Below, piece by piece: positions 5,572 to 54,427 of a stretch of 64,000 bases of DNA (the stretch's first letter is position 1; the number at the start of each line of letters is the position of its first letter). Source of the DNA: Bacteroidales bacterium (lineage in GTDB: Bacteria; Bacteroidota; Bacteroidia; Bacteroidales; Muribaculaceae). The notes under the pieces were generated by a model that did no database searches, had not been told where the DNA came from, and worked only from the letters and a program-made list of their open reading frames with translations. The translations under genes were made by a program, and so were the position numbers. The stretch lies in the NCBI GenBank assembly GCA_910575615.1, contig CAJTEX010000010.1, forward strand, positions 1 to 64,000, given 5' to 3'.

Positions 5572-8500
5572 ATGAGAAAATCAGTATCTCTGATGCTATC
5601 AGCAGCGTTGACCCTCGGGTCAGCAGTCTCCTCTTACGCCGCTCCTTTGGCGAAGAAGGCAGGGGGTGTCACCGCGGAGAATCAGTTGGCGGCCAAAGTC
5701 GCTGCCCCGGGTGACCAGAAGGGAAAAATCATGCTCACAAACCCAAGGCTTGCAAAAACAGTCCAGGTCTCTGGCCTGCACAAGGTGAAATCACAGCTCC
5801 AGGCCAAGCGGCAGGCGGCTTTGAAGTCGGCCACCGCGGCCCAGCGGGCAGCTGCCGCAGGCATTGACCTGCGGGGCAATGTGGTCTATTCCGACACATG
5901 GGGCGAAGCCTCTCTGCCTAACGTCTCCACGATTCCCACCTCCGAAGGGGGGGCGTTCGGGCAGATAGCGCCCCTGAACAACAGCTACATGTATGGCAGC
6001 GTCGACAACGGCGACGGCCTCTACTACTGTGTCAGCCATATGTCTATCTTTGGGATGGATTTAATGACCCTCGACACATATGACACTGACACCTGGGAGA
6101 AAATCAGCTCCAAGAGTGTCAACTATGACTGTATGTCGCTTGGATGCGCCCTCGATCCCGTTTCCGGCGATATCTACGGCGTGTACTATGCCGTGGAGGG
6201 GCAAAGCCTTGTCTTGAAATGGGCAAAGGCCGACTACGAGAACGGCATCAGCATACCGATTGCCGACTTCCCGGTGGGTGTGATGAGCGTCGGAGCAGCC
6301 GACGACGGCACTTTCTACGCCCTCGGTGTTGACCTTATCCTTTACAAGGTCGACAAGACAACCGGACAGACCGAAGCGGTCGCCCAGGCCGACCTGCCTT
6401 CCCAATATCTTTCCGGAGGTTGTGTCAACACCGCCAACAACACATACCTGCAGGCTTACTCGACCGACACTGAAGCAGGTCTGGTGGAAATCAACCTTGA
6501 GACCGGCGAGACAGTCGAATTGTGCCAGTATCCCGACGGCGAAGAGATTATGGGCCTTTACATCCCCAAGCCTGCCGCGGCAGACAAGGCGCCCGCAGCC
6601 CCCGGCCTGACCGTGGTATGCGATAACGGCTCGATGGATGTCGCCATCAAAGTGACAATGCCCACGACCCTCTTCGACGGCACCCCCGCTTCGGGCCAGA
6701 CATTCTCTTACAAGGTGGAGACCGGCGACGGAGCGACCGTTGCATCAGGCACAGCAGCCGCAGGGGCTGAGGTGACAGAGACCGCCACCCTGGCCGCATC
6801 GGGCATGACCAAATTCATCGCCACCGTCTCCAACGACGCCGGCACGTCGCCCAAGGCAAAGGCTGAATGCTTCGTGGGCAAGGGCGCGCCCTCGGCTCCC
6901 GCCAATGTGAAGCTCGCATGGGCCAACGGCACAGCCACCCTCACCTGGAATGCCGTCACCGCATCTTCCGACGGCGGATTCCTTGATCCCGCGGCAGTGA
7001 CATACACCGTGGCCGGCGCCGACGGCGAAATCATCGCCTCTGGCCTCACCGCCACCACATTCACCCAGGCCGTGCCCCTTCCCGCCAGCTACACCGCCCT
7101 GTCATATTCCGTCAAAGCCGAATATGATGGCAAGAGCTCGGCCTTCGTGGCCTCCAACGTGGTGGGCCTCGGCGAGTTCACCACCCCGCTCACCATGGAC
7201 ATGACCGATGCCGCCAACTTCGCAATCCACACCATCGAGGATGTCAACGGCGACGGCAAGACCTGGAACTTCTCCAGCGGCACCCGCTACACATACCACT
7301 CCTCCAATGCCGCCAATGACTGGCTGTTCTCCCCCGCCGTGAAACTTGAAGGCGGCAAGTCCTACAAGATCTCAGCCGTCGTGGCTGCCCAGGCCAACAG
7401 CTATGCCGAGCGCATCGAGGTGTTCATGGGACAGCAGCCCTCCTCCGCAGCCATGACTCTCGAGGTGATTCCCTCGACAGATGTTGTCGGCACCGCCGAC
7501 ACCGAGATTGAGGCATATGTCACCCCCTCCGCCACCGGAATCTACCATGTCGGCTTCCATGCCATCTCCGATGCCAACAAATATTACCTCCACCTGAAAT
7601 CATACTCGATTTCCGCCCCCATCTCGGCCTCCGCTCCCGAAGCCGTGGAGAATGTGTCTGTCAAGGCCAGCTCCTCTGACTGCTTCAAGGCTGAAATCTC
7701 CTTCAAGGCTCCCTCCAAGACCATCGCAGGCGACGCCCTGACCGGAAATGTCAAAGTCAAAGTGCTTCGCGGCGAGACTCTCGTCGCTGAGGAGTCACTC
7801 GCCCCCGGCGCGACAAAGAGCCTGGTGGATAACACCGTTGTCAATTCCGACACATACATCTACTCCTTCATCCCCGTCAATGCAGCAGGCGAAGAGGGCA
7901 AGACCGTCACGGTCGCTGCCTTCATCGGGGCCGCCAAGCCCGGCCAGGCTGGCGACTTCGCAGGCTATTCGGCAGGCAACAAAGTCAACCTCTCCTGGAC
8001 CGCTCCCACGGTTGACGCTGACGGCAACGCTCTCGTCGCCCCCAGCCTTACCTACAATGTCTGGTCTGTCGAGGGCGGCTATCTCGCAGAAGTACTCAAC
8101 GATGCCCCCATCACCTCCACCAGCTACTCGCTTGACATCGACGTGCCCGCCGAGCAAGATTTCGTGCAGTATGCCATCCAGGCTGTCAACTACGACGTTG
8201 AGGGCGGCGCATCCGGAGCCCTTGTCTCTGTCGGTCCCGCTTATGTGATGCCGGTGCTTTACAGCGGAGGCGCCTCTCTCGAGAGCTATATCCTTGGAAT
8301 CTCCGGCACAGGTGACGCCAGCCTCGGCGACGCGAGCATGGGTGTCGCGCCTTATGCGGGTGAGGACTTCTTCTACGCCAAGTTCACCGCCATCGGCCAG
8401 ACAGAGTCGTTTATAACCGGCAAAATCGCTGTCACAGGGGAGGCCCCCGTGGTCATGTTCCGCGAATACAAGCTTTCTGACCAAGACACCAACGGTACTG

Positions 8501-10056
8501 TCGTCTCTGTCATATGTGAGGGTGTGACCACCGAACTTGCTTCCTACACCCATGCCGACCTCGACACCGATGTCTGGAGCAAGCGCAAGTGCTCCCTCGC
8601 CCAGTTCAAGGGCAAAGAAGTGCAGCTCTTGATCACCGCTGTCTGCAACGGTGTGGCCTACAATCTGTATGATGAAATCAACATCTGCGAGGACATCAAC
8701 TACGACCTCCAGGCCGCCATTTCAGCTCCCGCCACAGTCGAGACCGGCGCAGAGTTCAATGTCTCCGTCACCATCGTGAATGACGGGGCCGAGGACTCCG
8801 ACTCATACACCGTCAACCTCTACCGCAACGGCGAGATCGTCGACACCAAGACCAACAACTACGGCCTGGCCGAAGGCGAGTCTGATGTGATGACCTTCAA
8901 GCAGACCCTCGGGCTCCACGACGGCGATTCCGCCGAGTACAAGGCTGTCGTTGTCTACGAGGCTGACGAGGTGCCAGACAACAACACCACCGCTACAGTC
9001 GTTGTCACCCGCAAACGATCGACCCTCCCCGCTGTCACCGGCCTCGCCGGCGAGAAGACCGCAGACGGCAACTCCCTGACATGGGATGAAATTGTGATCG
9101 CAGATGCCATGCCGATGGATGTCACCGAAGACTTCGAGTCAGCCGAGCCGTTCGCCAAGGAGTTTGAAGGTTGGACCTTCGTCGATGGTGACGGCAAGGC
9201 AGTGGGAGGATTCGAGGGCATCGACCTCCCGGGCATTGAACCCGGAACCACCACGGGCTCGTTCTTCATCTTCGACAATGCCGACAACACCTTCAACGAG
9301 TCTTACAACACCTCCAGCGGCACCAAGTTCCTGGCCGCGCTCTTCAATTTTGATGACAGCCAGGTGGATGACTGGGCGATCTCGCCCCTCCTGACCGGCG
9401 AAGCCCAGACCATCTCCTTCCAGGCCCGCAGCTATTCCGCCGACTATCCCGAGAAGATTGAGGTGTGGTACACCACCGATGACTCCGCCAATCCCAACGA
9501 CTTCGTGAAGGTGGAGGCGTTCGGCACCAAGACCCTTTCTGATGAGTTCCTCCTCTGCACCGCCGACCTCCCTGCCGGAGCCAAGCACTTCGCCATCCGC
9601 TCATGTGCAGCAGGCGCGTTCATGCTGATGATTGACGATGTCACCTACAAGGCGATTGTCGGATTCAACGGCCAGCTCCAGGGCTACAACGTGTATTGCG
9701 ACGGAGTCAAGCTCAACGACGCTCCCGTGGCCCAGGCTTCCTACCTCCACGCCACCGAGGATGACGCGGCCCACACCTACCATGTGACCGCCGTCTACGA
9801 CAAGGGGGAATCTGAACTCTCAGACCCCGTGACCGTAGGCCAATCTGGTGTCGACTCAGTACTCGCCGCAGGCCTCAAGATTTCAGTCGAAGGCCAGTCG
9901 ATCGTAGTGACCGGTGCCGAAGGCAAGCTTGTCACCATCAACTCCGTTGACGGCAAGACCATCTACGCCGCCCAGGGCGACGCCCGCGTGGCAGTCAACG
10001 CCGCCATCTACCTGGTGACCGTCGACCGCAAGACCGTCAAGGTCGCCGTCCGCTGA
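5572..10056 (+). CDS. Large multidomain surface protein (choice-of-anchor J / cleaved-adhesin, FN3, CARDB)
   Basis: This 1494-aa protein starts with a signal peptide ending near SSYAAP. Residues ~100-340 form a repeat-rich, propeller-like region, followed by fibronectin-III-like modules (~345-535). A choice-of-anchor J/cleaved-adhesin domain (~535-685) has the DVNGDGKTW...NDWLFSPAVKL signature. More FN3-like modules follow, then a CARDB-like module (~1045-1145, ISAPATVETGAEFNVSVTI). A second anchor-J domain (~1175-1340) carries DDWAISPLL. The protein ends with a final FN3 and a C-terminal tail (VTINSVDGKTIY...AIYLVTVDRKTVKVAV) like type IX sorting domains. It is probably an exported adhesin or binding protein at the cell surface. 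It is a full-length paralogue of the gene at 19929. The ligand is unknown. A strong terminator follows. Confidence 0.85.
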   Translation: MRKSVSLMLSAALTLGSAVSSYAAPLAKKAGGVTAENQLAAKVAAPGDQKGKIMLTNPRLAKTVQVSGLHKVKSQLQAKRQAALKSATAAQRAAAAGIDLRGNVVYSDTWGEASLPNVSTIPTSEGGAFGQIAPLNNSYMYGSVDNGDGLYYCVSHMSIFGMDLMTLDTYDTDTWEKISSKSVNYDCMSLGCALDPVSGDIYGVYYAVEGQSLVLKWAKADYENGISIPIADFPVGVMSVGAADDGTFYALGVDLILYKVDKTTGQTEAVAQADLPSQYLSGGCVNTANNTYLQAYSTDTEAGLVEINLETGETVELCQYPDGEEIMGLYIPKPAAADKAPAAPGLTVVCDNGSMDVAIKVTMPTTLFDGTPASGQTFSYKVETGDGATVASGTAAAGAEVTETATLAASGMTKFIATVSNDAGTSPKAKAECFVGKGAPSAPANVKLAWANGTATLTWNAVTASSDGGFLDPAAVTYTVAGADGEIIASGLTATTFTQAVPLPASYTALSYSVKAEYDGKSSAFVASNVVGLGEFTTPLTMDMTDAANFAIHTIEDVNGDGKTWNFSSGTRYTYHSSNAANDWLFSPAVKLEGGKSYKISAVVAAQANSYAERIEVFMGQQPSSAAMTLEVIPSTDVVGTADTEIEAYVTPSATGIYHVGFHAISDANKYYLHLKSYSISAPISASAPEAVENVSVKASSSDCFKAEISFKAPSKTIAGDALTGNVKVKVLRGETLVAEESLAPGATKSLVDNTVVNSDTYIYSFIPVNAAGEEGKTVTVAAFIGAAKPGQAGDFAGYSAGNKVNLSWTAPTVDADGNALVAPSLTYNVWSVEGGYLAEVLNDAPITSTSYSLDIDVPAEQDFVQYAIQAVNYDVEGGASGALVSVGPAYVMPVLYSGGASLESYILGISGTGDASLGDASMGVAPYAGEDFFYAKFTAIGQTESFITGKIAVTGEAPVVMFREYKLSDQDTNGTVVSVICEGVTTELASYTHADLDTDVWSKRKCSLAQFKGKEVQLLITAVCNGVAYNLYDEINICEDINYDLQAAISAPATVETGAEFNVSVTIVNDGAEDSDSYTVNLYRNGEIVDTKTNNYGLAEGESDVMTFKQTLGLHDGDSAEYKAVVVYEADEVPDNNTTATVVVTRKRSTLPAVTGLAGEKTADGNSLTWDEIVIADAMPMDVTEDFESAEPFAKEFEGWTFVDGDGKAVGGFEGIDLPGIEPGTTTGSFFIFDNADNTFNESYNTSSGTKFLAALFNFDDSQVDDWAISPLLTGEAQTISFQARSYSADYPEKIEVWYTTDDSANPNDFVKVEAFGTKTLSDEFLLCTADLPAGAKHFAIRSCAAGAFMLMIDDVTYKAIVGFNGQLQGYNVYCDGVKLNDAPVAQASYLHATEDDAAHTYHVTAVYDKGESELSDPVTVGQSGVDSVLAAGLKISVEGQSIVVTGAEGKLVTINSVDGKTIYAAQGDARVAVNAAIYLVTVDRKTVKVAVR

Positions 10057-46096: not shown

Positions 46097-46211
46097 TAAT
46101 TGGCCTTTTTTGTGACGGTTTTCATCCGACATCGGTTGCAAATGTGGCGCGACGGGTGTGGATGGTTTGATTCATTCGTGGCCCGGGGGATGGAAATATA
46201 ATGGGCGGCGA

Positions 46212-46243
46212 TTGGCGGAAGACGCGGAAAAGTCGTAACTTTG
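46212..46243 (+). promoter_or_regulatory. Promoter of the MBOAT/SGNH operon
   Basis: TTGG, 20 bases, then TAACTTTG. A reading frame opening at 46201 would start upstream of this promoter, so the ATG at 46300 is used. Confidence 0.7.
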
Positions 46244-46299
46244 CAGCCGAGTTACGAGATACCCCACATTTTGTTTCCACTTATCTGTTACGATTCCCG

Positions 46300-47748
46300 A
46301 TGTTGTTCAACTCGATAGAGTTCGCTGTTTTTCTGGTTGTCGTGTTCCTGCTCTACTGGTTTGTGTTCAATCGCCAGGAGCGGGTGCGCAATCTGTTTGT
46401 GATTGCCGTCAGCTATCTGTTTTACGGATGGTGGGACTGGCGTTTCCTGTTGCTCATCGCCTTCACGTCGCTGTGCAGCTTTGTCAGCGGCCTTGTGATA
46501 AGCAGCAGCCACCGGCTTGGGCGTCAGGGCAAAGCCCGTTGGGTCTGCGGGTTGAACGTGGCGGTCAACCTGACCATCCTCTGCCTGTTCAAGTATTACA
46601 ACTTCTTCATGACTGAGTTTGCCGCGAGGTTTCTTGATGGAGACACGTCAGGGCTGCTGGTCAAGCTGGTGCTGCCGGTGGGAATCTCATTCTACACATT
46701 CCAGGCCCTGAGCTATTCGATTGATGTATATCGCCGCAAGCTTGAGGCGACCTCTGACGTCACGGCATTCTTCGCCTACATCGCTTTTTTTCCGCAGCTT
46801 GTGGCCGGGCCTATCGAGCGCGCCACAAACCTGCTGCCGCAGTTTTACAGCCTGCGCGCCTTTGATTACGAGGGAGCGGTCGACGGGATGCGCCGCATCC
46901 TGTGGGGTTTGTTCAAGAAGGTGGTTGTCGCCGACAGCTGTGCCGTCATGGTCAACACGGTCTTCGCCGATTACTCCACGCTGCCGGGCAGCACGTTGCT
47001 GATAGGGGCAGTGTTGTTCGCGTTCCAGATTTACGGCGATTTCTCGGGCTATTCCGACATCGCCATCGGCACGGCGCGCCTCTTCGGGTTCAGCCTGATG
47101 CAGAACTTCCGCAACCCTTATTTCTCGCGCGACATAGGTGAGTTCTGGCGCAGGTGGCACATTTCGCTCAACACCTGGTTTCGCGACTATGTCTATATCC
47201 CGCTTGGCGGGAGCCGGACAAGCAAGCACAAGGTGGTGCGCAACACCTTTGTCATCTTCCTGCTCAGCGGGTTGTGGCACGGGGCCAACTGGACCTTCCT
47301 GGTGTGGGGCGGCTACCACGCCCTGCTCTTCGTGCCTCTTATCGTGTCAAAGCGCAACCGCAAGCACACAGACACTGTGGCCCAGGACAGGCGGCTGCCA
47401 TCGTTTGCCGAGGTGCGCGGTATGGCGGTGACATTCTGCCTGGTGGTGGTCGGCTGGATTTTCTTCAGGGCTGAGACCATCGCCGATGCCTGGCATTACC
47501 TCTGTGGGATTTTCAGCCGCTCGCTGTTTGCCAAGCCTACGGGTTACGGGCGCGAGCATGACCTGTGGGTGACCATCGCATGGATTGTGGTGATGCTGGC
47601 GGTGGAATGGATTCAGCGGCGACGCGACCACGGGCTGGCGCTCGGACTTGTCAAGCCACGCTGGCTGCGGTGGATAGTGTATTACGCGATACTTGTCAGC
47701 CTCCTTTTCGGCGAGGGGGTGGAGACATTCATCTATTTCCAGTTTTGA
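46300..47748 (+). CDS. MBOAT family membrane O-acyltransferase (AlgI-like)
   Basis: The 482-aa protein has ten or more membrane helices. Diagnostic motifs are LPVGISFYTFQALSYSIDVYR, FFPQLVAGPIERATNLLPQ, IYGDFSGYSDIAIGTARLFGF, FWRRWHISLNTWFRDYVYIPLGGSR and LWHGANWTFLVWGGYHAL with the catalytic His. Such proteins pass acyl groups, commonly acetyl, across the inner membrane for attachment to exported polymers, as AlgI does for alginate. The next gene starts 6 bases after its stop and encodes the expected periplasmic partner. The polymer modified here is unknown. Confidence 0.93.
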   Translation: MLFNSIEFAVFLVVVFLLYWFVFNRQERVRNLFVIAVSYLFYGWWDWRFLLLIAFTSLCSFVSGLVISSSHRLGRQGKARWVCGLNVAVNLTILCLFKYYNFFMTEFAARFLDGDTSGLLVKLVLPVGISFYTFQALSYSIDVYRRKLEATSDVTAFFAYIAFFPQLVAGPIERATNLLPQFYSLRAFDYEGAVDGMRRILWGLFKKVVVADSCAVMVNTVFADYSTLPGSTLLIGAVLFAFQIYGDFSGYSDIAIGTARLFGFSLMQNFRNPYFSRDIGEFWRRWHISLNTWFRDYVYIPLGGSRTSKHKVVRNTFVIFLLSGLWHGANWTFLVWGGYHALLFVPLIVSKRNRKHTDTVAQDRRLPSFAEVRGMAVTFCLVVVGWIFFRAETIADAWHYLCGIFSRSLFAKPTGYGREHDLWVTIAWIVVMLAVEWIQRRRDHGLALGLVKPRWLRWIVYYAILVSLLFGEGVETFIYFQF

Positions 47749-47754
47749 AACACC

Positions 47755-48807
47755 ATGGAATCAGGCAACAACATAGGTCTTGTGAAATTCCTGCGCCGTC
47801 TGCTCATAGGCGCGATTCCCGCGATGGTTTTCTGTGTGGCGATACTCTACTTCGCCCTCTTTCTGCGGCCGCAGATGGTGGGAGACCTCGGCGAACTCGG
47901 GAAGATACGGTTTGACCGCGCGTATTGCGACAGCATGTATCGTCCGGTGCTGCCAAACGGCATGCCATTGATTTACCAGCCCGGCGACTCACTTGCGGCT
48001 GTGGTCACGATCGGCGACTCATTCAGCCAGCAGCGTCCCAACGGCTACCAGGCGTTCCTGGCAGAGCGCATCGGGATGCCGGTCAGCAACATCGCGCTGG
48101 ATCACCATCAGGTGTCTCCCGAGCAGGCTGTGTGGGACATGGTGAATTCCGGATTTTTCGACAGCCATCCCGCCGTTGAGTGGGTCGTGGTCGAGACCGT
48201 CGAGAGGGAGTTCATAAGCCGCTGGCTGGCAGTCGACACGGCCCGCACGACAAGCCATTATCCTGTTGTCCGTCAGAAATCTCCTGATGAGGGTGCTGAT
48301 TCCCGCGGACTGGCCGGACGGATTTTCCGACAAGGGGTCGACTGGCTGAAACTGTCGGCCGGGCTGGCCGACAGTCCCGTCAAGTCGGTGAGACTTGACA
48401 GGGAATGTTTCACCCTGCCTGGCAAGGAGGCGATGCTCTATTTTTATCAGAACGATCTGGTTTGCCTGTCGGCCACCGACGGGGAAATCGCGGAAGTGGC
48501 GGCGAGGCTTTCAGCCCTCCACCGCCGTTTCGCCGCACGGGGAATCGGGATGCTCTTTATGCTCGCGCCTGACAAATATGAGCTTTATCAGCATCTTGCG
48601 GTTGACAATCCATATCCGGCGCGTCCGCTCGGCTCCCAGCTTCTGGTTCTCGACTCGCTCGGCTTCGTGGTGAATCCGCTCCCTGAGCTTTCGCGCCGTC
48701 TTGAGGCCGGGGAGAAAGACCTATTCATGGCGGATGACAGCCATTGGTCGGCCAAAAGCGCGCAGACGGCGGCTTCGCTTGTCGCCGCGAAGATGCTGGC
48801 GCGGTGA
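47755..48807 (+). CDS. AlgJ/AlgX-like SGNH acyltransferase partner of the MBOAT protein
   Basis: This 350-aa protein has one N-terminal membrane anchor (~17-38) and a periplasmic SGNH-hydrolase-like domain. The nucleophile Ser89 lies in TIGDSFSQ; the acid and base are Asp327 and His330 in ADDSHWS near the C terminus, the arrangement of AlgJ, AlgX and PatB. It probably takes acetyl groups delivered by the MBOAT protein and places them on a cell-surface glycan. It is translationally close to that gene (6-base gap). A solitary transposon-end sequence lies 40 bases after its stop. Confidence 0.85.
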   Translation: MESGNNIGLVKFLRRLLIGAIPAMVFCVAILYFALFLRPQMVGDLGELGKIRFDRAYCDSMYRPVLPNGMPLIYQPGDSLAAVVTIGDSFSQQRPNGYQAFLAERIGMPVSNIALDHHQVSPEQAVWDMVNSGFFDSHPAVEWVVVETVEREFISRWLAVDTARTTSHYPVVRQKSPDEGADSRGLAGRIFRQGVDWLKLSAGLADSPVKSVRLDRECFTLPGKEAMLYFYQNDLVCLSATDGEIAEVAARLSALHRRFAARGIGMLFMLAPDKYELYQHLAVDNPYPARPLGSQLLVLDSLGFVVNPLPELSRRLEAGEKDLFMADDSHWSAKSAQTAASLVAAKMLAR

Positions 48808-49200: not shown

Positions 49201-50535
49201 TTAGTCGATGGTCTCGTCAGCGGGGTAGCCTCCCATCTCGCGGATGGCGTTCTTCAGCATCACATACTGCTGGAAGAGGTGGTTGACAGGTACCTCGTTC
49301 TTGGTGTAGTCGTGCATCGGGCTCTTGAGGAAGAAGCTCAGGAAGCGCTGGATGCCGTAACGGCCGTTGCGGGCAGCGAGGTCGCTGAGCAGCACGAGGT
49401 CGAGGCAGAGGGGAGCTGCGAGGATTGAGTCGCGGCAGAGGAAGTTGATCTTGATCTGCATTGGGTAGCCCATCCAGCCGAAGATGTCGATGTTGTCCCA
49501 TCCCTCCTTGTTGTCGTTGCGGGGGGGATAGTAGTTGATGCGCACTTTGTGGTAGTAGCCGTTGTGGTCGTTGCCTTCGCCGCCGCAGTTTACGCCGTAG
49601 AGGTCGGGCTGCTCTTCGGGGACGAGGATGGACTCGAGTGTGGAGAGCTTGGAAACTTCCTTGGTGCGGAAGTTGGCGGGCTCGTCAAGCACGAGGCCGT
49701 CGCGGTTGCCGAGGATGTTGGTGGAGAACCAGCCGTTGAGGCCGAGGCAACGGGTGCCGATGATGGGGGCGAATCCCGACTTCACGAGGGTCTGGCCGGT
49801 CTTGAAGTCCTTGCCGGCGATGGGCATCTTGGTCTTCTCGGCGAGCTCCCACATGGCGGGGATGTCGACGGTGGTGTTGGGGGCGCCCATGATGAAGGGA
49901 GCGCCTTCGGTGAGGGCTGCGTATGCGTAGCACATCGAGGGGGCGATATGCTCCTTGTCGTCGGCCTTCATGGCGGCCTCGAGCTGGTCGAGGGTCATGT
50001 GGACGTTCTCGTCGACGGGAACGTACACCTCGGTGGATGCGGCCCAGAGGACAACCACGCGGTCAACGCCGTTTTCCTTCTTGAAGTTGCGGATGTCTTC
50101 GCGGAGCTGCTCTGTCATCTCCCAGCGGGTCTTGCCGACCATGATATTGTCGCCGTGGAGACGCTTGGCGTAGTTGTGGTCGAAAGCGGCCTTCATAGGC
50201 TTGATGTTCTCAAGCTCATCCTTCACCGGGTTGATGTCCTTCTCTTTGAGAACCTCGGCGTTGATGGCAGCCTCGTATGCGTTGGCGGGATAAACGTCCC
50301 ATGCGCCGAACACGATGTCGTTGAGATCTGCGATGGGGACAATCTCGTTATATTTGAGGTATTTTTTGTTTTCGCCTTCTCCGACACGGATTTTGTCGTA
50401 CTGGGTCATTGAGCCGACAGGCTTGGAAAGACCTTTGCGGGCCATCAACACACCGGTCATGAAGGTGCTGGTGACAGCGCCGAGACCAACGACTAATACG
50501 CCGAGTTTGCCCTCGGCCTTCTTAACGTTACTCAT
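49201..50535 (-). CDS. myo-Inositol-1-phosphate synthase
   Basis: The 444-aa enzyme turns glucose 6-phosphate into 1L-myo-inositol 1-phosphate with NAD. The N-terminal Rossmann segment GVLVVGLGAVTSTFMTG, the VVVLWAASTEV strand, GAPFIMGAPNTTVDIP, the active-site stretch PIAGKDFKTGQTLVKSGFAPII and GWMGYPMQIKINFLCRDSILAAPL all match the family. Bacteria rarely need this enzyme except to make inositol lipids or osmolytes; four genes just upstream for lipid-headgroup transfer make the lipid route likely. It has its own promoter element, 345 bp after the PAP2 gene, so it can be set independently of the membrane enzymes. Confidence 0.95.
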   Translation of the reverse strand: MSNVKKAEGKLGVLVVGLGAVTSTFMTGVLMARKGLSKPVGSMTQYDKIRVGEGENKKYLKYNEIVPIADLNDIVFGAWDVYPANAYEAAINAEVLKEKDINPVKDELENIKPMKAAFDHNYAKRLHGDNIMVGKTRWEMTEQLREDIRNFKKENGVDRVVVLWAASTEVYVPVDENVHMTLDQLEAAMKADDKEHIAPSMCYAYAALTEGAPFIMGAPNTTVDIPAMWELAEKTKMPIAGKDFKTGQTLVKSGFAPIIGTRCLGLNGWFSTNILGNRDGLVLDEPANFRTKEVSKLSTLESILVPEEQPDLYGVNCGGEGNDHNGYYHKVRINYYPPRNDNKEGWDNIDIFGWMGYPMQIKINFLCRDSILAAPLCLDLVLLSDLAARNGRYGIQRFLSFFLKSPMHDYTKNEVPVNHLFQQYVMLKNAIREMGGYPADETID

Positions 50536-50654
50536 TTTAAATAGTATGGTTTGTTTTTTTCAGTTGGCAACTTTAGAGTCGTGATGATTGGCTGTCGGTT
50601 GCCCGTTTTGCCGGGGAAGAGAGAGGAATCGACTGGCCAAAGCAAAATTGCCCC

Positions 50655-50662
50655 CAAAAGTA
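50655..50662 (-). promoter_or_regulatory. -7 element of the inositol-phosphate synthase gene
   Basis: TACTTTTG on the minus strand, giving a leader of about 110 nt. The rest of 50663-50879 is AT-rich with no gene; only a weak GGAGG/CCTCC-type hairpin near 50833-50856 is visible. Confidence 0.5.
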
Positions 50663-50879
50663 CGGAGATATTTCGGATTGTGAAAATATTTTTGGTGAAA
50701 TATTTGTTTTGTTTCGTGAATAAATATTTAATATACCGCTATATGGTTAAAATGAGTTAATGATGGCCTTTGTGTGGTTGTGTGTGTTAAAATGTATTAA
50801 TATAGTTTTGGCCAAAAATCACATATTCAGCCCTCCTTTTAGGGGGAAGAGGAGGTGTCAGGCAGGGGAACCATCCTGG

Positions 50880-51848
50880 TTAAGGTTTGTTAACTTTGGC
50901 CGGATTCACATATCGGGCGTAACGGTCGATGAACCGCGAGAATGCCGGGATGCGCATCAGGCCGTGTTCAAACAGCGCGTATGCCAGGAGGCTGCAGAGT
51001 ATGCCCAGGGTCACGTCGATGATGTAATGATGGGAGGAGTAGACGGCGGTGAACCATATGCCGACAGTGATCACGGCCAGAAGGAGGCGAATCCAGAGGG
51101 GGGATTTGGATTTGAGCGAGTAGATGAACGCCACGAAGGTGTAGGCCGAGTGGAGCGACGGCACGGCGGCGAACACATTGGCGTTGCGCCCGTAAAGGCC
51201 GTGGAAAATCCCCAGGCTGGTCATCTCGTCGAACCTCCCGAGTCCGGCCACTTCGCCGGGGGTGGCGAGGTCGAGCCCGAATCCGTGGAGGGCCACATAC
51301 CATGGAGGCGCGGCGGGATGGATGTAATATCCGGCGAAGCCGATGAAGTTGACAAGCAGGAACACCAGGGCGAAATGGAGATATGCTTTGCTTTGTCCAC
51401 CGAAGTAGAGCCAAAGGCCGAAGAGTATCGGCACCGGCACCCAGCAGAGGTAGAATACACCCCCGAGGAAGTCCATCAGCGGTGTGGTGTGGAGGGCGAA
51501 GAACTCGTTGGGGGTCAGCAGTGTGCCATCGGTGGCAGTGATGCCGAAGAGGTTTTTCTCGGCGTTGTATATCCCCTCGATGTCGACAGGGTTGACCTCG
51601 TAGTTGTGGACGATGTTCATCCAGTCGTATGAGATGCCGAAGATTATGAACGGCAGCAGGGCCACGACCGCCTTGCGTGAGACAGGGCAGGCAAAGAAAA
51701 GCGCAGCAAGCAGCAGGGCCATCCACAGGTGCTCCGGACGGAATCCGACACACAGGGCTGTGACCGCCAGCCATATGGCCAGTGCGGCCACCACGATTGC
51801 CGACTCGCGGCGTGAGGGTAATGCCTTCGTCATCCTGCGGTGGGTCAT
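50880..51848 (-). CDS. AUR1-like PAP2 enzyme, probable inositol phosphorylceramide synthase
   Basis: The 322-aa membrane protein has about six to seven helices and the PAP2 catalytic motifs in the AUR1 arrangement: PSLHSA with His233 and SSHHYIID with His274 and Asp278, plus the AUR1-type HPAAPPWY (177-184) and GLGRFDE segments. AUR1 moves phosphoinositol from phosphatidylinositol to ceramide; here the same reaction, giving a bacterial inositol phosphosphingolipid, is inferred. The start codon at 51848 overlaps the stop of the preceding phosphotransferase gene by 4 bases (ATGA), so the two are translationally coupled. A frame open further upstream lies inside that gene and is not homologous. 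Confidence 0.85.
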   Translation of the reverse strand: MTHRRMTKALPSRRESAIVVAALAIWLAVTALCVGFRPEHLWMALLLAALFFACPVSRKAVVALLPFIIFGISYDWMNIVHNYEVNPVDIEGIYNAEKNLFGITATDGTLLTPNEFFALHTTPLMDFLGGVFYLCWVPVPILFGLWLYFGGQSKAYLHFALVFLLVNFIGFAGYYIHPAAPPWYVALHGFGLDLATPGEVAGLGRFDEMTSLGIFHGLYGRNANVFAAVPSLHSAYTFVAFIYSLKSKSPLWIRLLLAVITVGIWFTAVYSSHHYIIDVTLGILCSLLAYALFEHGLMRIPAFSRFIDRYARYVNPAKVNKP

Positions 51849-52555
51849 TTGTCTGCTTTCTTGTCGGCCGACAGTGTGGCGCGGCAGACACCTACGCGGG
51901 CGAAAGCCGTGATGTTGGCGAAGATGGCGATTATGGCCATGGCGATGACGAGTATCATCATCGCGGCGTAGGGGGTATTGGGCGAAGCCAGGCCTGTGAT
52001 GCCGCACGCGAGGCATCCGACAGAGGTCACCACCACTCGCTCGGGGCGTTGCATGAATCCGACCTTGCACTCTATCCCAACGCCTTCGGCGCGGGCGCGG
52101 ACGTAGCTGACCATGATGGAGCCGACCAGGGCCACGAAAGTGACCAGGGCACCGACGGGGTAGCCTGCCATGATGAGGAAATAGCTCAGCGCGCCCAGGG
52201 TTAGCAACTCGCAGTAGCGGTCAAGCACAGAGTCGTATAGCGCGCCGAACCTTGACTCCATGTTGCCAAGCCGCGCGACCTGCCCGTCGAGCATGTCGAA
52301 AAGCGAGAAGAGTATGGTCACGGCCCCTCCCCATGTGATGAGGTCGAATCTAAGGTGGGTCGGGTCGATGGCGGCCAGGTAGCCTGCCCAGGCTATGATG
52401 CAGGCTGCGGCGAGGTTGCCGAGCAGACCGATGGTGGTCACCATGTTGGGGGTGACTCCGATGCGGATGAGGAATTTGACAAAGGGGTTGATGATGAAGT
52501 AGATGCCCTTCTGTATTCCGTCGCGTTTTTTCTTGAAGGTATTCTTGGCGGTCAT
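51845..52555 (-). CDS. CDP-alcohol phosphotransferase, probable phosphatidylinositol-phosphate synthase
   Basis: The 236-aa protein has about six membrane helices. It carries the complete family signature D(x2)DG(x2)AR(x8)G(x3)D(x3)D with Asp87, Asp90, Gly91, Ala94, Arg95, Gly104, Asp108 and Asp112, which bind the metal and CDP. A later QRPER segment resembles phosphatidylinositol- and archaetidylinositol-phosphate synthases. Next to an inositol-phosphate synthase, the likely reaction is CDP-diacylglycerol plus inositol phosphate giving phosphatidylinositol phosphate. It overlaps the GtrA-like gene before it and the PAP2 gene after it by 4 bases each. Confidence 0.88.
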   Translation of the reverse strand: MTAKNTFKKKRDGIQKGIYFIINPFVKFLIRIGVTPNMVTTIGLLGNLAAACIIAWAGYLAAIDPTHLRFDLITWGGAVTILFSLFDMLDGQVARLGNMESRFGALYDSVLDRYCELLTLGALSYFLIMAGYPVGALVTFVALVGSIMVSYVRARAEGVGIECKVGFMQRPERVVVTSVGCLACGITGLASPNTPYAAMMILVIAMAIIAIFANITAFARVGVCRATLSADKKADK

Positions 52556-53142
52556 TTGTCGCTTGTATTTTTCTTCTTTTTCAAGGTCAGCGCGTCGACC
52601 ATCCTTATGGCGAAGGGGTCGAAACGGGTCGGCCGGTAGACGAAGTTCTTCTGCATGACGAAATTCCAGGCCAGGGAGACGATGAGCGACACCGACAAGC
52701 GGGCGAATGCGAAAATCCCGTCAGGCTTTATCCAATGTATGTTGGTTATCAGTTCGAAACGTTGCAGCCCCTGCTCGAGGAGGGTGGTGCCCCCGAGGTT
52801 GAGGATGAAGCTGCCTCCCCAGATGAGGAGGTATTTGATTGCCACCGCCTTGACCGAGCAGTTGTCGGCCTGGAAGGTGAACTTGTAGTTGACGATGCAG
52901 TTGACGATGCCTCCTACCACGAGGCCGATGGCTGTGGCCAGGAAGGTGCGCATGGGGGCCGAGCCGAGCGGAGAGAATACCCAGGCGTAGAACACGAAGC
53001 ATACCCCCATATCGGTCCACGACGCGATTTGGGATGAAACCGATGAGCGGAGGAAGGTGAAGATGCCTTTCCCGTGCAGAAACTTGTCGGCGATTTTGTT
53101 TGACAGTGTCTTTATGCCCATCTGATTTGTCTGGGGTTGCAT
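52552..53142 (-). CDS. GtrA-like small membrane protein
   Basis: The 196-aa protein has four hydrophobic segments in the GtrA pattern: SQIASWTDMGVCFVFYAWVF, TFLATAIGLVVGGIVNCIVNYKFTF (with the conserved NY.FTF), AIKYLLIWGGSFILNLGGTTLL and LSVSLIVSLAWNFVMQKNFVYR (with the matching N..F..K..F). GtrA proteins are thought to help flip polyprenyl-linked sugars or otherwise assist membrane glycosylation. The start at 53142 lies 26 bases after the ATP-grasp-like gene; an ATG at 53121 is possible. Placed inside the lipid operon, it might move an inositol-lipid intermediate across the membrane, which is speculation. Confidence 0.82.
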   Translation of the reverse strand: MQPQTNQMGIKTLSNKIADKFLHGKGIFTFLRSSVSSQIASWTDMGVCFVFYAWVFSPLGSAPMRTFLATAIGLVVGGIVNCIVNYKFTFQADNCSVKAVAIKYLLIWGGSFILNLGGTTLLEQGLQRFELITNIHWIKPDGIFAFARLSVSLIVSLAWNFVMQKNFVYRPTRFDPFAIRMVDALTLKKKKNTSDK

Positions 53143-53168
53143 TTTTTGTGTTGGGTGTGAGTCGATTG

Positions 53169-54014
53169 TTACTGGCGTCGCTCTTTGATGGCGGCCATTA
53201 CTGCCTTGGCGATGTTGGTGGCGGCCTCGGCGCGGCAGGCCGAGAAGCTTGGCCAGTCGTTGAAGTCGATTATGCTGAGCGAGCCGTCTTCGGCCTGGAT
53301 GCACTCCCCGCCGTAGACGATGAGGTTCAGCTCCTTGGCTGCGCGGCGGCATATCGCCTTGAGGGCCTCATCGGTGCGGCGGGTCTCCTCGTCCTTGGGC
53401 TTGATGGTCTCAGGCTCGTAGGGGCGGAACCAATGGAAGAAGGGGGTGTCGGCGACACCGTAGAATTTCACGAGCTTGCCGGTGAGATGGCGCGAGATGA
53501 CGGCTCTCTTGAATCCGCGCAGGAAATACTCCTGGAGGACATCCTGAGCCTCGGCGGGGGTGCGCACATAGCTGACATCCTCGGCATGCTGGGCGTGGAA
53601 GTCGCCGCGCTTTATCCAGCACTGGCTGAAGCCGAGTTTCTGGAGGCGGCCTTTGACCACCTCGTCGGTGTCGACGATGATGCTGGCGGGGTAGGGGATG
53701 TTGGAGCCGAGCAATATGCGGGCCTGGCGCTCACGGATGCAGTTCTCGATGCCATAGCCTGAGTTTATGACCAGCTGCCCCTGCTCCTCGAGCTGCTGCA
53801 GCAGGTCGGTCGAACGGCGTTCGCGACACATATTTATGATCACCGGCTCGGTGACAGCCCCCGAGCAGAATTGCTCCTCGGAGTAAATGCGCACCTCGCA
53901 GCCGCGTTTGCGCAGCTGCTCGGCCACGGTGTTGAGTATCGTGGCGTCGTTTCCGACATGGTTGGGGGAGAATGCCCCAGCTCGCATTATGGCGGCTATC
54001 TTCGTGGTGGCCAT
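53169..54014 (-). CDS. ATP-grasp-like protein in the inositol-lipid operon
   Basis: This 281-aa soluble protein starts with a Rossmann-like domain (~1-95, TTKIAAIMRAGAFSPNHVGND...). The next part resembles an ATP-grasp enzyme: a nucleotide-binding strand (SQCWIKRGDFHAQ), a turn GFKRAVISRHLTGKLVKFYGVAD, and a C-terminal metal-site strand SLSIIDFNDWPSF with Asp and Asn in the expected places. ATP-grasp enzymes join a carboxylate to an amine, thiol or similar group with ATP. No precise family is recognised. It is the first gene after a consensus promoter and leads GtrA, the CDP-alcohol enzyme and PAP2, so a role in making or decorating the lipid headgroup is plausible. Confidence 0.7.
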   Translation of the reverse strand: MATTKIAAIMRAGAFSPNHVGNDATILNTVAEQLRKRGCEVRIYSEEQFCSGAVTEPVIINMCRERRSTDLLQQLEEQGQLVINSGYGIENCIRERQARILLGSNIPYPASIIVDTDEVVKGRLQKLGFSQCWIKRGDFHAQHAEDVSYVRTPAEAQDVLQEYFLRGFKRAVISRHLTGKLVKFYGVADTPFFHWFRPYEPETIKPKDEETRRTDEALKAICRRAAKELNLIVYGGECIQAEDGSLSIIDFNDWPSFSACRAEAATNIAKAVMAAIKERRQ

Positions 54015-54037
54015 CGCAAAATCAGTTTTCCAGAGTG

Positions 54038-54069
54038 CAAAGGTAGCTCATTTCGGTCAAAATCGCAAA
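54038..54069 (-). promoter_or_regulatory. Promoter of the inositol-lipid operon
   Basis: TTTG, exactly 20 bases, then TACCTTTG on the minus strand; the start codon at 54014 follows about 24 bases later. Confidence 0.75.
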
Positions 54070-54148
54070 TTTTTGTCGGGGTGACGGCTCCCACGCCTAT
54101 GATACGAGATGGTGGCCGCCGTGTCCCGGCATTGCCGGCGCGAGGCCG

Positions 54149-54427
54149 TCATTTCTTCTTTTTCTTTGAGAAATAATCGTTGTGCATCTTGATGGCGAAC
54201 ACCGTCGCCGAGCATGCCAGGGTGATGAGGTTGGTGATGATCAGCGGCCAGTTGACGGGGTCGCTCAGGAATCCCTGGGCGACGAAGAAGGCCGATCCGA
54301 GGCCCATTAGCATGAATGTCGGCAAGGCGATGGAGTCGGTCTCGCGGGTGCGGATGGTGTAGATGGCCTGGGGGAGGTAGCCGAAAATCATGCAGAGGGC
54401 GGCTGCGTATCCAATGATGTTGAACAT
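54149..54427 (-). CDS. SemiSWEET-type sugar transporter
   Basis: This 92-aa protein has three membrane helices forming one triple-helix bundle. The signature is GYLPQAIYTIRTRETDSIALPTF in helix 1 (PQ motif) and NWPLIITNLITLACSATVFAIKM in helix 3, followed by a lysine-rich tail. SemiSWEETs work as dimers and let small sugars pass down their gradient. It has its own promoter and is followed, after an 80-base gap, by the inositol-lipid operon promoter. Whether it carries inositol or another polyol is only suggested by position. Confidence 0.87.
   Translation of the reverse strand: MFNIIGYAAALCMIFGYLPQAIYTIRTRETDSIALPTFMLMGLGSAFFVAQGFLSDPVNWPLIITNLITLACSATVFAIKMHNDYFSKKKKK

Follow-up and report, generated by a model that had tools for sequence, protein, structure and literature searches.

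A 64,000-nucleotide stretch of DNA from a Bacteroidales bacterium of the family Muribaculaceae (GenBank assembly GCA_910575615.1, contig CAJTEX010000010.1, positions 1 to 64,000; hereafter the window, that is, contig C10 of genome G000, other genomes being numbered G and fetched loci L) carries on its minus strand, at 49201-54427, an inositol-lipid locus of six genes, one of which encodes the ATP-grasp enzyme that is our main subject here. A preliminary description, made from the letters of the window alone, had already listed all six genes and likened the locus to that of Bacteroides thetaiotaomicron (BT). Family models and the positions of the open reading frames bear out the genes and their coordinates, and the family assignments against BT_1522-1526 bear out the type. 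The locus encodes myo-inositol-phosphate synthase (MIPS), PI-dihydroceramide (PI-DHC) synthase (IPCS), phosphatidylinositol phosphate (PIP) synthase (PIPS), a GtrA-like protein, the ATP-grasp enzyme and a SemiSWEET protein (Table 1).

Table 1. Features of the inositol-lipid locus in the window
Feature	Position	Strand	Evidence
MIPS (BT_1526 type)	49201..50535	-	PF07994 347 bits, PF01658 103 bits
PAP2/AUR1-like IPCS (BT_1522 type), PAP2 fold	50880..51848	-	NF052609 500.5 bits, cut-off 480 exceeded
CDP-alcohol enzyme, PIPS (BT_1523 type)	51845..52555	-	PF01066; motif DMLDGQVAR...GALYDSVLD
GtrA-like membrane protein (BT_1524 type)	52552..53121	-	PF04138 35 bits; start inferred from relative L031
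ATP-grasp enzyme	53169..54014	-	matches no Pfam family; common to the alternative inositol-lipid cluster
Bacteroidales-type promoter TTTG-N20-TACCTTTG	54038..54069	-	pattern search; ends 23 bp 5' of the ATP-grasp start codon
SemiSWEET/PQ-loop protein	54149..54427	-	PF04193 40 bits; NF037968 55 bits, below cut-off

The PAP2 translation contains the motifs PSLHSA, HHYIID and APPWY that had been singled out earlier, and the 4-base overlaps reported for this part of the locus are present as ATGA at both the GtrA/PIPS and the PIPS/PAP2 junctions. Judging from the relative L031, the GtrA gene probably starts at 53121 (MGIK...), in which case it does not overlap the ATP-grasp gene. The promoter pattern, which has 6 matches in the window against 0.34 expected, lies just 5' of the ATP-grasp gene, so that the operon most likely comprises ATP-grasp, GtrA, PIPS and IPCS, with MIPS downstream behind a 344-bp gap and SemiSWEET standing separately. 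The grouping of SemiSWEET with the locus, as originally proposed, did not hold: it adjoins the locus in only 3 of the 9 loci of the window's genus, and the operon's own promoter lies in between, which rules it out as a conserved pathway member and leaves it probably a neighbour outside the operon. No Rfam RNA was found between positions 48000 and 56000.

The core of the locus has a characterised counterpart. In B. thetaiotaomicron, MIPS is encoded by BT_1526, a PIP phosphatase of the PgpA family by BT_1525, GtrA by BT_1524, PIPS by BT_1523 and IPCS by BT_1522 (PMC9246714); the window locus contains a counterpart of each except BT_1525, and its GtrA-PIPS-IPCS module is in the same order (PMC9246714, PMC8791184). 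It differs in that PgpA is unlinked, MIPS follows beyond the gap and an ATP-grasp gene heads the operon. Both the ATP-grasp and GtrA had been described as unexplained by the B. thetaiotaomicron route, and this is true of the former only, GtrA being BT_1524 (PMC9246714, PMC8791184) and thus no unexplained extra. Deletion of BT_1524 lowered inositol phosphorylceramide and raised phosphatidylinositol (PI) in one study (PMC8791184), whereas the phenotype was absent on thin-layer chromatography in another (PMC9246714). The PIPS translation carries the DX2DGX2AR...GX3DX3D signature, and its best NCBIfam model is NF052561 'PIPSynBT1523' (274.9 bits, under the model's cut-off of 350), as opposed to only 27.5 bits for the pgsA model; in agreement with the preliminary description, these model scores rule out a phosphatidylglycerophosphate (PGP) synthase. 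The window genome has just two CDP-alcohol transferases, PIPS and PssA, the latter beside a Psd-like gene, with no PgsA among them.

The missing member, a PgpA-type PIP phosphatase, was not found within the window locus, and the genome carries a single PgpA, unlinked, at G000:C21:18262-18702. We surveyed 178 genomes of the order, drawn evenly and not exhaustively, and 118 of the family. PgpA (over cut-off) and IPCS occurred in the same 11 of the 178 order genomes (Fisher p 1e-17) and the same 44 of the 118 family genomes (Fisher p 2e-33), with none discordant in either sample and neither p value corrected for relatedness. In 24 of these 44, PgpA and IPCS are linked; in the other 20, namely the window genome and 19 more, they are not. 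Since the window genome lacks a PGP synthase, its unlinked PgpA most likely acts as the PIP phosphatase. That the ATP-grasp replaces an absent PgpA is ruled out, PgpA being kept in every genome with IPCS. For the unlinked PgpA of the window's genus, identity reaches 50% with its counterparts in BT-type clusters beyond the family but only 32-40% with three cluster-linked PgpA from within the family; going by these comparisons, its origin may differ from that of the family's cluster-linked PgpA.

The ATP-grasp gene leads to a different gene cluster. Its tblastn matches fall in records of Parabacteroides, Bacteroides, Phocaeicola and Prevotella, where it is always flanked by an 'NDP-sugar synthase' (a nucleoside triphosphate (NTP) transferase) on one side and a CDP-alcohol transferase on the other, both of the alternative inositol-lipid cluster. 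The plasmid-collection records L004-L007 (Bacteroides, Parabacteroides, Phocaeicola, Prevotella) contain housekeeping genes, mutY, ssb and ribH among them, and seem to be either chromids or pieces of chromosome under a wrong label. For this cluster (B. vulgatus/Prevotella type), the NTP transferase, the CDP-alcohol transferase and a HAD hydrolase have been named as members, with the gene between the first two left unnamed; the alternative route (Prevotella, Phocaeicola) stands as a proposal only, and the species concerned produce PI-DHC (PMC9246714). The ATP-grasp is an unannotated member of this cluster, and we found no mention of it in the inositol-lipid literature searched, including the main text of PMC9246714; this membership is what is new here. 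The preliminary description overlooked both the constancy of the ATP-grasp in the alternative cluster and the disappearance of the PgpA-type phosphatase from the window's own, and the gene-neighbourhood comparison that it had suggested tied the ATP-grasp to the alternative cluster but did not preserve the link with SemiSWEET.

In the order sample, the ATP-grasp is present in 20 of the 21 genomes with the alternative NTP transferase (cytidylyltransferase), and 113 of the 118 family genomes have it as well. It is fused to the NTP transferase in L045 and L050, and L049 joins NTP transferase, ATP-grasp and CDP-alcohol transferase in one fusion. The alternative NTP transferase also shows a weak similarity to the inositol-1-phosphate cytidylyltransferase domain of Thermococcales, in agreement with the CDP-inositol proposal of PMC9246714. 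The window ATP-grasp is 49% identical to that of L004 and 61% to that of L030, all of them belonging to the same tree. Among public genomes, its nearest named loci are, for instance, those of Muribaculaceae bacterium Isolate-013, Muribaculum, Duncaniella and Paramuribaculum intestinale, which makes Muribaculaceae very likely as the family of the window.

How a BT-type module came to stand behind this gene is suggested by its relatives, with the reservation that gene calls in the fetched loci are BLAST-labelled open reading frames of draft genomes. Many genomes of the family possess a composite locus, NTP transferase-ATP-grasp-[PgpA-GtrA-PIPS-IPCS]-alternative CDP-alcohol transferase (altCDP)-HAD-MIPS, and the window's genus and genus g149 possess a reduced one, ATP-grasp-GtrA-PIPS-IPCS(-MIPS). 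In a quick tree of the ATP-grasp, the reduced loci nest within the composite ones; four changes are needed, at least two of them forced by starred branches. MIPS of the window shares 85-91% identity with its counterparts in alternative and composite loci (85% in the case of a sister genus that carries the alternative cluster) versus 55-63% with MIPS of BT-type clusters, and the ATP-grasp and MIPS therefore look like the old frame. A tree of PIPS and IPCS places the family on one side and outside clusters on the other, weakly supported (63). The simplest reading of the nesting would be that a BT-type module was inserted beside the ATP-grasp in Muribaculaceae. Compared with the alternative cluster (PMC9246714), the window shares the ATP-grasp and MIPS, whereas the NTP transferase, the CDP-alcohol transferase and the HAD hydrolase are missing and the BT-type module stands in their place. 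A check of 15 reduced-locus genomes (9 of g1, 5 of g149 and 1 of g157) found no alternative NTP transferase at E<1e-30 and two CDP-alcohol transferases in each. In the window genome, all matches of the NTP transferase search were generic members of that class (best E 1.3e-8), and no alternative CDP-alcohol transferase was found beside PssA and PIPS. The retained ATP-grasp is under strong purifying selection in the window's genus, with dN/dS of 0.03-0.21, mostly lower than for IPCS and GtrA.

What the enzyme might do can be approached through its active site. ITPK had been suspected from motifs ahead of the sequence-profile search of the Protein Data Bank (PDB), in which, with three alignments, Entamoeba ITPK came first each time (E 2.7e-7, 6e-5 and 8e-7). 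The few further matches included human and plant ITPKs, and PsnB and ArgX came next. The families compared are set apart by two active-site positions: in RimK, LysX, ArgX and PsnB, the strand that follows the hinge bears an Arg and the metal motif is ExN, as against Lys and DxN in ITPK and PPIP5K. In the ATP-grasp family (n=121), K183 is found in 119 members, D250 in 114 and N252 in 116, matching ITPK in the Lys at the K199 position and in DxN (1z2n and human ITPK1 compared). H143, present in 110 of 121, lies in a loop, shorter and of unsure alignment, that may correspond to the H167 region of ITPK; K135, H143, K183 and D250 are kept in all 17 reduced loci. Beyond the profile match, the Lys and the DxN, the P-S/G-aromatic end and perhaps the His-containing loop are also shared with ITPK (PDB 1z2n, 2q7d, 7pup), from which the window enzyme differs by its very low identity, the lack of an Arg at R212, its shorter length and its bacterial origin. 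With the RimK, LysX and ArgX ligases, it has in common the general architecture of a three-domain ATP-grasp (Z about 22), and it departs from them in Lys for the conserved Arg, in DxN for ExN and in scores far under their family cut-offs. Lys183 and D250xN252 thus favour phosphate transfer over acyl-phosphate ligation, and on these residues the ATP-grasp is likely a candidate kinase of inositol, an inositol phosphate or an inositol-lipid headgroup.

We therefore read the locus of this mouse-gut-type bacterium, with a probability of roughly 0.55, as a hybrid operon in reduced form that would make inositol phosphorylceramide (PI-DHC), with a retained ATP-grasp acting as a kinase of inositol, inositol phosphate or inositol lipid. 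By homology to characterised enzymes, MIPS would convert glucose-6-phosphate to inositol 3-phosphate (Ins3P), PIPS would join Ins3P and CDP-diacylglycerol to form PIP, the unlinked PgpA-type phosphatase of contig C21 would convert PIP to PI, and the AUR1-like IPCS would move phosphoinositol onto dihydroceramide to yield PI-DHC, with GtrA assisting like BT_1524, perhaps by moving lipid. The ATP-grasp would be a remnant of an alternative-type cluster that received the BT-type module, and would have outlived the alternative cytidylyltransferase and CDP-alcohol transferase. Its retention suggests a substrate common to both routes, either one of the soluble inositol compounds ahead of lipid synthesis or the finished lipid; as a kinase, whose activity and substrate we infer, it would transfer the ATP phosphate to inositol, an inositol phosphate or the lipid's inositol headgroup. 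In favour of this, ITPK1 accepts Ins3P, the product of MIPS (PMC7618535, PMC12077091).

Several findings weigh against this reading. An AlphaFold2 model of the ATP-grasp (pLDDT 90.5, pTM 0.87) compares best with RimK (Z 22.1, rmsd 3.2 over 254 residues), LysX (21.9) and Ddl (20.6), with ITPK not among the 50 structure matches listed, which by itself does not count against ITPK, and hhalign against single sequences places PsnB and ArgX above ITPK, so that kinship alone is not decisive. At Arg212 of ITPK1, a conserved inositol-phosphate contact, the corresponding position 196 is F/Y in 112 of 121 members, position 197 being Y/F/R; the Pfam ITPK model PF05770 is touched by only 1 of 40 members (E 0.0048), and no match exceeds its cut-off. 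As to distribution, G035 is an alternative-type genome without the ATP-grasp, its NTP transferase and CDP-alcohol transferase being fused, BT-type genomes outside the family lack the gene, and in L131 (8396-9262) and L132 (8727-9599) it stands alone by a pdxA-like gene with no inositol-lipid genes nearby, which means that its linkage to such genes is not absolute.

The fold ranking would be accounted for by a ligase of the RimK, LysX or peptide-ligase type that puts an amino acid or other carboxylate on the inositol-lipid headgroup after synthesis, and so would the weak match of the NCBIfam model rimK_fam (TIGR00768) to 31 of 32 members and the aminotransferase and inositol-dehydrogenase-like genes added in far relatives, a possible source of amino-inositol. 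We nevertheless regard such a ligase as less likely than the kinase, since the Arg that serves the acyl phosphate is replaced by Lys in 119 and ExN by DxN in 114 of 121 members, rimK_fam scores 32.5 bits versus a cut-off of 143.4, and in the far relatives L253 and L254 the ATP-grasp comes with neither aminotransferase nor dehydrogenase. Filing the enzyme as either ITPK or RimK was dropped, each failing at least one tested feature.

Less probable still is an inositol or Ins3P 1-kinase that fixes stereochemistry, which together with the HAD phosphatase would turn Ins3P into inositol 1-phosphate (Ins1P) for CDP-inositol, and which in reduced loci would merely salvage free inositol for PIPS. This would suit the alternative route's constant set of MIPS, NTP transferase, ATP-grasp, CDP-alcohol transferase and HAD, the fusions with the NTP transferase, the PI-DHC made by alternative-route species, and the acceptance of Ins3P by ITPK (PMC7618535). 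However, the reduced loci have lost the HAD, the ITPK route from Ins3P runs via inositol 3,4-bisphosphate (Ins(3,4)P2) and is not a single 1-phosphorylation (PMC7618535), and G035 dispenses with the ATP-grasp. Least probable of all is an ordinary BT-type cluster in which the ATP-grasp and SemiSWEET are passengers with no inositol-lipid role, as the BT-type genomes without the gene, the lone copies beside pdxA and the patchy adjacency of SemiSWEET might suggest, but which sits poorly with an ATP-grasp that is tied to inositol-lipid genes in many genera, forms fusions, is the operon's first gene, is under strong purifying selection and has an intact active site in 17 of 17 reduced loci.

If the ATP-grasp is indeed an inositol kinase, its reach would extend beyond one genus. 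Phosphorylation of inositol of this kind has been described chiefly in eukaryotes. ITPK-like chemistry is assigned to eukaryotes and Asgard archaea (PMC12077091, PMC8024741), which bacteria would then join. We tentatively suggest, at somewhat less than even odds, that ATP-grasp inositol kinases related to ITPK are widespread in gut Bacteroidales and elsewhere in the Bacteroidota as part of inositol-lipid pathways, and that phosphorylated inositols or phosphoinositides would be made there. The gene is nearly constant in the alternative route and outlasts that route in Muribaculaceae, which suggests a missing step or a modification. The inositol lipids of gut Bacteroidota influence fitness within the host and capsule expression (PMC9246714).

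Some loci related to that of the window are larger. In far Bacteroidota (L247-L252, L255, L256), the alternative cluster is extended by class-III aminotransferase and inositol-dehydrogenase-like genes, most of these loci also having an Mla lipid transporter (MlaE, ATPase, MlaD) and four having two tandem ATP-grasp copies; domains were assigned in L252 and the remaining loci were read by gene order and size. These extended clusters suggest that an amino-inositol lipid is made and transported. In L123, the gene of a YegS/DAGK-type lipid kinase (7710-8705) separates the ATP-grasp from the CDP-alcohol transferase. In Muribaculaceae, a PlsC-type acyltransferase related to OlsF/GlsA adjoins altCDP in L083 (11540-12394) and likewise in L085, L088, L093, L100, L105, L128, L129, L130, L133 and L141. 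Finally, a plus-strand pair of MBOAT and AlgX-like genes of the polysaccharide O-acetylation type occupies positions 46201-48807 of the window, beyond MIPS, and the same pair adjoins the locus in L075.

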